Source: Methanobacteriota archaeon (lineage in GTDB: Archaea > Thermoplasmatota > Thermoplasmata > UBA10834). Taken from it: DNA of 47,780 nucleotides. The position numbers and the translations under genes are program-made. The stretch is from the NCBI GenBank assembly GCA_020347645.1, contig CP070736.1, forward strand, positions 507,385 through 555,164, given 5' to 3'. The notes beneath the pieces were generated by a model, which was not told where the DNA came from, searched no databases, and saw only the letters and a list, made by a program, of their open reading frames with translations. Shown here one piece after another: positions 49 through 591 of the stretch (positions are counted from its first letter, which is position 1; every line of letters starts with the position of its first letter).

Positions 49-306
49 TCACCCCCGGACCACTAATCTGTAGCAGACCGACATTCCGCTAGTATCGCTC
101 CGCCTAATGATCTTGACAACCATCCCCTCTTCGACCGGGCCGCATATCGCATCCAACGCACGTATGCAGGGATCGGACAGTCTCATCTTCGGAAGCTGGT
201 CCTTACTGAGGTTGAGTGACTTCAAGACCTTCGCAACCTCCTTCTCCGGAAGGAGATGGTGCTCCGGGACGAGCTCATGCTCCAACACATTGAATTCTTC
301 GGTCAT
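49..306 (-). CDS. rpoH: DNA-directed RNA polymerase subunit H (Rpb5 C-terminal homologue)
   Basis: This is the small archaeal RNA polymerase subunit H, the equivalent of the C-terminal domain of eukaryotic Rpb5. The 85-residue product has the family signature: an LVPEHHLLPEKE segment near residues 12-23, then LPKMRLSDP near residue 40, then a basic KIIRRS strand near residues 66-71. The length is normal for the family. I chose the ATG at 306 over a TTG at 324 because GGGGTGA lies at a good distance before it. It sits between a tRNA-Lys gene (86 nt upstream) and rpoB (4 nt downstream). No clear promoter is visible between tRNA and rpoH, so the three may share a transcript. Confidence 0.95.
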   Translation of the reverse strand: MTEEFNVLEHELVPEHHLLPEKEVAKVLKSLNLSKDQLPKMRLSDPCIRALDAICGPVEEGMVVKIIRRSDTSGMSVCYRLVVRG

Positions 307-408
307 TTCGTAATCACCCCGCAAGCGCAGGATTGAACAAGTTGGGATTGCTCATATCCACCCTCACTATGGGATCCCTCGGCGCGCCGCCTGGCGGGCC
401 CGCGGGGA

Positions 409-438
409 TTTTCGAGACTAGTCTGTAAGGCATAGTCA
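409..438 (-). other. tRNA-Lys intron 2 (T loop)
   Basis: Thirty nt interrupt the T loop between TTCGAA and the last loop base. The 5' exon TTCGA pairs with TCGAA near the intron's 3' end, GACTA pairs with TAGTC as the inner helix, and GGGG/CCCC of the T stem is the outer helix, with small bulges at the predicted cut sites. Removing bases 438 to 409 restores a standard TTCGAAT loop, corresponding to an intron near tRNA position 59/60. Confidence 0.8.
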
Positions 439-478
439 TTCGAACCCCGGGCCACCTGCTTAAAAGGCAGATGCTCTT

Positions 479-516
479 TCTAGGGAGTCCTATACATCGA
501 GAATGCATGAGATTCC
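479..516 (-). other. tRNA-Lys intron 1 (D loop)
   Basis: About 38 nt interrupt the D loop between AGCTAGGTA and the 3' half of the D stem. The exon segment TAGG pairs with CCTA at the intron's 3' end, and TAG and GAA bulges lie on opposite strands. The intron itself folds into a hairpin whose upper part is TGCAT/ATGTA closing a TCTCG loop. This matches the bulge-helix-bulge pattern cut by archaeal tRNA splicing endonuclease. The exact cut sites can shift by 1-2 nt. Confidence 0.75.
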
Positions 517-591
517 TACCTAGCTGAGCTACGGGCCCGTAGGCGGCGCGGATACCCGAGGCTGCTTTAGCAGGGCGTGTAGTCAATTCCA

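Follow-up and report, generated by a model that had tools for sequence, protein, structure and literature searches.

The window analyzed here, a 47,780-nt stretch of DNA from an uncultured Thermoplasmata lineage with a euryarchaeon-like genome, contains a tRNA-Lys(UUU) gene interrupted by two introns at noncanonical sites, one in the D loop (tRNA position 20/21) and one in the T loop (59/60). No other tRNA-Lys(UUU) gene was found, and very probably the transcript of this one carries two bulge-helix-bulge (BHB) introns, is cut by the splicing endonuclease EndA, and is ligated. In the precursor cloverleaf, each intron end would pair with exon bases of its own loop (CUAG with CUAG at the D site, UUCG with CGAA at the T site), EndA would cut every 3-nt bulge between nucleotides 2 and 3, and joining of the exons would fall to the archaeal tRNA ligase, which we take to be of the RtcB type. 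The layout would be old in the phylum, with an intron at position 37/38 gained later in some families and some or all introns lost in others.

Anatomy of the interrupted gene

The features of the locus, all on the minus strand, are as follows; exon assignments come from ARAGORN on the spliced sequence.

49-306, minus strand: rpoH (RNA polymerase subunit H), just downstream of tRNA-Lys(TTT), a neighbor conserved in many lineages
395-538, minus strand: two-intron tRNA-Lys(TTT) gene; G73 at 395, with the letters CCA next at 394-392
518-538, minus strand: exon 1, comprising the acceptor 5' strand, the D-stem 5' strand, and the D loop up to U20
520-523, minus strand: exon strand (CUAG) of the 4-bp D-site central helix, partner 480-483, supported by covariation
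478-517, minus strand: intron 1, 40 nt, at tRNA position 20/21 in the D loop; 5' bulge GU/A, 3' bulge AA/A (the slash marks the cut)
480-483, minus strand: D-site central helix, intron half (CUAG), supported by covariation
439-477, minus strand: exon 2, comprising A21, the D-stem 3' strand, the anticodon arm (UUU), the variable loop, the T-stem 5' strand, and the T loop up to A59
441-444, minus strand: T-site central helix, exon half (UUCG), which abuts the T stem without a gap and pairs with 411-414
409-438, minus strand: intron 2, 30 nt, at tRNA position 59/60 in the T loop; 5' bulge AA/U, 3' bulge AA/U
411-414, minus strand: T-site central helix, intron half (CGAA)
395-408, minus strand: exon 3, comprising U60, the T-stem 3' strand, the acceptor 3' strand, and G73

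Read from 538 to 395 on the minus strand, the gene is GGGCCCG TA GCTC AGCTAGGT [40 nt] A GAGC A TCTGC CTTTTAA GCAGG, continuing as TGGCC CGGGG TTCGAA [30 nt] T CCCCG CGGGCCC G. Once 517-478 and 438-409 are excised, the remaining 73 nt are called by ARAGORN as tRNA-Lys(ttt), a cloverleaf with a UUU anticodon and every stem intact, and a covariance model matches 396-538 at 142 bits. In its unspliced form the gene is called as a tRNA by neither ARAGORN nor Rfam, and Rfam at a relaxed threshold gives chance matches alone at this locus. The minimum-free-energy fold of the unspliced 144-mer contains the cloverleaf together with both exon-intron helices (z = -4.0), a result that none of 200 shuffles equals.

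The initial annotation had proposed a tRNA-Lys(TTT) with perfect stems and introns in the D and T loops, and the ARAGORN call on the excised sequence, the fold, and covariation bear this out, as do the length and position of the T intron (30 nt, 438-409). Its D intron has to be redrawn: given as 38 nt with a junction at 516/478, it is 40 nt (517-478) in the archaeal splice register, in which each 3-nt bulge is cut after its second base, and the junction was off by one or two bases. We assign 517-478 on the strength of this register and of intron-free relatives; a D intron of 517-480 was rejected and leaves two extra A residues in the D loop.

A strict T site and a relaxed D site

The T site conforms to the strict hBHBh' motif, with the central helix UUCG/CGAA, its two bulges, and a flush T stem outside; in this genome its inner helix (GACUA/UAGUC) is loose by one base, and in some other families it is tight. 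The D-site motif is always relaxed. Its central helix (CUAG/CUAG) and bulges are accompanied by an inner helix GGA/UCC, and its outer helix, the D stem, is not flush, an AG opposite the 3' bulge intervening. A flush outer pair, as in the strict hBHBh' form, occurs in 0 of 90 sequences, and inspection of the D site for an alternative flush helix found none; the relaxed HBh' form fits, with 3 of 3 inner-helix pairs in 86 of the 90. The earlier view that both junctions fit BHB folding thus holds strictly for the T site and in relaxed form for the D site, where the strict form fails.

Across 25 relatives, 99.9% of the cells of the proposed structure pair and 9 pairs change on both sides, a number reached by 0 of 500 shuffles; such changes affect 3 of the 4 pairs of the D-site central helix and all 3 pairs of the next intron helix. 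With splice positions set by exon anchors alone and the helix ignored, pairing in the D helix reaches 99.2% over 90 distinct sequences, and a shift of 1 to 3 bases lowers it to 24 to 48%. The T helix, counted in the same way over 81 sequences of which a few rows (8 to 12 nt) are parser errors inside longer introns, is 94% paired and drops to 30 to 68% when slid. Pair types at the D helix include CUAG/CUAG, CCAG/CUGG, GUAG/CUAC, AUAG/CUAU, GUCG/CGAU, and UUCG/CGGA, among others. We note that in family f9 (L224, L225, L249, L250), whose introns are among the shortest, the T loop carries TCCG in place of TTCG and the intron end reads CGGA, a matched change.

The only gene found for the AAA-reading tRNA

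An anticodon-arm search of the window's own genome (G000), allowing up to 3 mismatches, returned one match, and no second tRNA-Lys(TTT) is among the 30 Rfam tRNA matches listed for this genome, whose tRNA set rests on Rfam matches and model searches. The single-contig relatives G002 (86% complete) and G006 (90%) gave one anticodon-arm match each. G000 scored 65% complete, so that a second tRNA-Lys or a second enzyme could be missing from G000 itself, and the single-contig relatives argue against either. An intron-less second tRNA-Lys(TTT), which the initial annotation had named, in combination with a lack of spliced reads from this locus, as a finding that would overturn it, was found in none of G000, G002, and G006. 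Codons of the window genes include 41 AAA and 154 AAG.

Other tRNAs of G000 carry one intron near the canonical 37/38 position: Lys-CTT, Met, Gly-TCC, Tyr, Gln-CTG, Glu-CTC, and Ser-GGA (loci L014, L019, L021, L023, L027, L029, and L030). No D- or T-loop introns were seen among the Rfam tRNA matches of G000, a search that would miss such genes. In genomes of this kind an essential tRNA escapes both ARAGORN and Rfam, and such genomes could consequently look incomplete.

Distribution and intron history

Among the sampled families of Thermoplasmata, about 23 share both splice sites (20/21 and 59/60), Methanomassiliicoccus included; the close relatives are uncultured Thermoplasmata MAGs. The loci read were picked to cover families, and the following lists are therefore not frequencies. 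D and T introns together occur in f1, f2, f5, f7, f9, f10, f11, f17, f20, f25, f28, f29, f30, f32, and f33, with f29 including Methanomassiliicoccus (CALUEU010000002.1, JADFDJ010000007.1), and three introns (D, T, and 37/38) in the eight families f3, f12, f15, f16, f19, f21, f23, and f24. A D intron only was read in f13 and, outside class Thermoplasmata, in f43 and f59; a T intron only in f4 and some of f7 and, outside the class, in f37, f60, and f67; and D plus 37/38 introns in f22 and, outside the class, in f39, f52, f54, f56, and f63. No introns interrupt tRNA-Lys(TTT) in f6, f14, f18, f31, f34, and f35, and Thermoplasmatales-like relatives have an intron-free tRNA-Lys(TTT) in the same layout. 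The initial annotation had called two introns unusual for a euryarchaeon-like genome, a judgment that stands against the literature only, the layout being widespread in the phylum. Some families (f30, f12, f51; L270, L292, L285, L267) have an intron in the T loop of tRNA-Lys(CTT), and the 59/60 site is thus not confined to the UUU isoacceptor.

Because rpoH lies downstream of tRNA-Lys(TTT) in zero-, one-, two-, and three-intron lineages alike, the gene represents a single orthologous locus at which introns have been gained and lost. An EndA tree of 28 rows accounts for the D-intron states with 3 changes, the T-intron states with 3, and the 37/38 states with 2; its deep branches are weak, and those of f18 and f14 are long. 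On this tree, f6 looks like a case of intron loss within intron-bearing groups. Intron interiors are wholly different between families. Within f1 (window 438-409, L086-L100), T-intron identity averages 92%, extending to loop bases unneeded by the splice motif, and identity in the downstream flank is 43%; the 60 bases upstream of the tRNA-Lys gene are 80% identical.

The splicing endonuclease

The only gene with PF01974 repeats found in G000 encodes an EndA of 351 amino acids (G000:C1:1139180-1140232, minus strand) that is a single chain with two such repeats. Twelve genomes (G000 and 11 relatives, 10 of which are at least 90% complete) have one PF01974 gene each at the cut-off, with an additional match in G008 far below it. 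Residues Y290, H298, and K329 lie in the C repeat and are near-invariant among relatives, and the N repeat is without Y or H at the matching places, so that the catalytic triad falls in the C repeat alone, as in the α'2 architecture. There are two repeats, no third unit, and no separate β gene, unlike the ε2 or CSL-bearing (αβ)2 types, and the aligned relatives show no CSL- or ASL-type insertion at the crenarchaeal or ARMAN loop place, between FGKxIG and LQLSLIEA. We consequently predict an α'2-like enzyme without the loops linked to broad specificity. The closest proteins by sequence and fold are the EndA of Methanopyrus kandleri (5x89; best sequence match, E 7e-40), then that of Archaeoglobus fulgidus; the EndA model (pLDDT 87.6) gives TM scores of 0.80/0.83 to 5x89 and 0.73/0.83 to 1rlv.

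EndA is about 290 to 300 amino acids long and strongly diverged in f18 (L302, L317) and f14 (L303), where tRNA-Lys is intron-free, and about 350 elsewhere; in f6, tRNA-Lys is intron-free yet EndA is full-length.

Alternative explanations and implications

Multi-intron and noncanonical tRNA introns have been tied to CSL- or ASL-bearing endonucleases (PMC4090602, PMC4033280, PMC12397907), as has broad specificity itself (PMC12397907), whereas euryarchaeal α4/α2 enzymes (PMC4033280, PMC4090602) and α'2 enzymes (PMC4033280, PMC4090602, PMC12397907) are said to cut canonical motifs only. The initial annotation had concluded that the introns imply an endonuclease of broad specificity. This is half supported: intron location by itself does not imply broad specificity, because the strict hBHBh' motif in the T loop could in principle serve as substrate for a narrow enzyme, and although the D-loop motif is relaxed, the only EndA found is α'2-like and lacks CSL and ASL. 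The relaxed D site does conflict with the canonical-only rule for α'2 enzymes, barring help from an unrecognized factor or from an ordered removal of the introns, and efficient D-site cleavage by EndA is conjectural because the outer helix is never flush and reviews limit α'2 enzymes to canonical motifs. We consider it rather unlikely, though not negligibly so, that the tRNA is spliced but its D site needs more than α'2 EndA alone, such as an unrecognized subunit, a cofactor, or removal of the T intron first with the D arm rearranging to a strict motif. Such help would suit the outer helix that is not flush in any of the 90 sequences and the two-repeat EndA without an insertion at the CSL/ASL place. 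It would also suit the finding that ARAGORN recognizes the gene after removal of the T intron alone, which indicates that an otherwise mature tRNA can accommodate the D intron. Against it are the single PF01974 gene at the cut-off in each of the 12 genomes and the lack of an alternative flush D-site helix on inspection.

That standard tRNA finders miss the gene might suggest a decaying pseudogene or insertion-damaged tRNA with an intact tRNA-Lys(UUU) elsewhere, but this is scarcely credible and already contradicted by the intact exons and stems, the architecture common to about 23 families with compensatory changes, the failure to find a second copy in the three genomes searched, and the use of AAA codons in the window genes. 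We also think it improbable that the introns are retained for a role of their own, as a small RNA or as a platform for tRNA modification before splicing. The persistence of the interrupted sites over much of the phylum and the excess of T-intron identity over downstream DNA in f1 would fit such a role, but the interiors differ completely between families, several lineages have lost introns, no RNA family matches, and the upstream flank is conserved too, so that conservation is not special to the introns.

Returning to a single tRNA-Lys(UUU) spliced at two BHB sites, we regard it as quite possible, if somewhat short of an even chance, that a tRNA-Lys(UUU) carrying as many as three introns, of which one has a relaxed motif, has been kept since early Thermoplasmatota and is spliced by a loop-less α'2 EndA. 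If true, relaxed or multiple tRNA introns would not, contrary to the rule, depend on a CSL/ASL endonuclease. This would be a phylum-wide counterexample at one rpoH-linked orthologous locus, with natural gains and losses for each intron, making the co-evolution idea testable in vitro.

Comparison with known systems

Multi-intron tRNAs have been described mainly from Thermoproteota/Crenarchaeota (PMC8450103, PMC4033280), as the initial annotation rightly held, and a listing of them is without any Thermoplasmatota (PMC4033280). Our partial coverage of the literature found no report of multi-intron tRNAs in Thermoplasmatota, and the Methanomassiliicoccus case may already stand in GtRNAdb. The Thermoproteales, of which Pyrobaculum calidifontis has 71 introns in 46 tRNA genes (PMC8450103), resemble the present case in having two or three BHB introns per tRNA, at and outside 37/38. 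Here, by contrast, the host belongs to Thermoplasmatota, the splice sites are essentially constant in one tRNA across the phylum, and the enzyme appears to be an α'2-like EndA without CSL rather than a crenarchaeal (αβ)2 enzyme. The circularly permuted tRNAs of Thermofilum and Cyanidioschyzon share a T-loop junction at 59/60 with a BHB motif (PMC3218864), whereas this is an ordinary intron in a collinear gene. The three-intron tRNA-Ile(UAU) of Cyanidioschyzon merolae has D-arm, anticodon, and T-arm introns (PMC9602550) like the three-intron Thermoplasmata genes, but it is from a eukaryote and its sites are 12/13, 37/38, and 53/54. As for the enzyme, the EndA of M. kandleri (5X89), a heterotetramer of constrained broad specificity, and the narrow α'2 EndA of A. 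fulgidus (1RLV, 2GJW) (PMC6379350) likewise are without CSL or ASL; the EndA described here differs in being a single 351-residue chain in hosts with a relaxed D-site intron.
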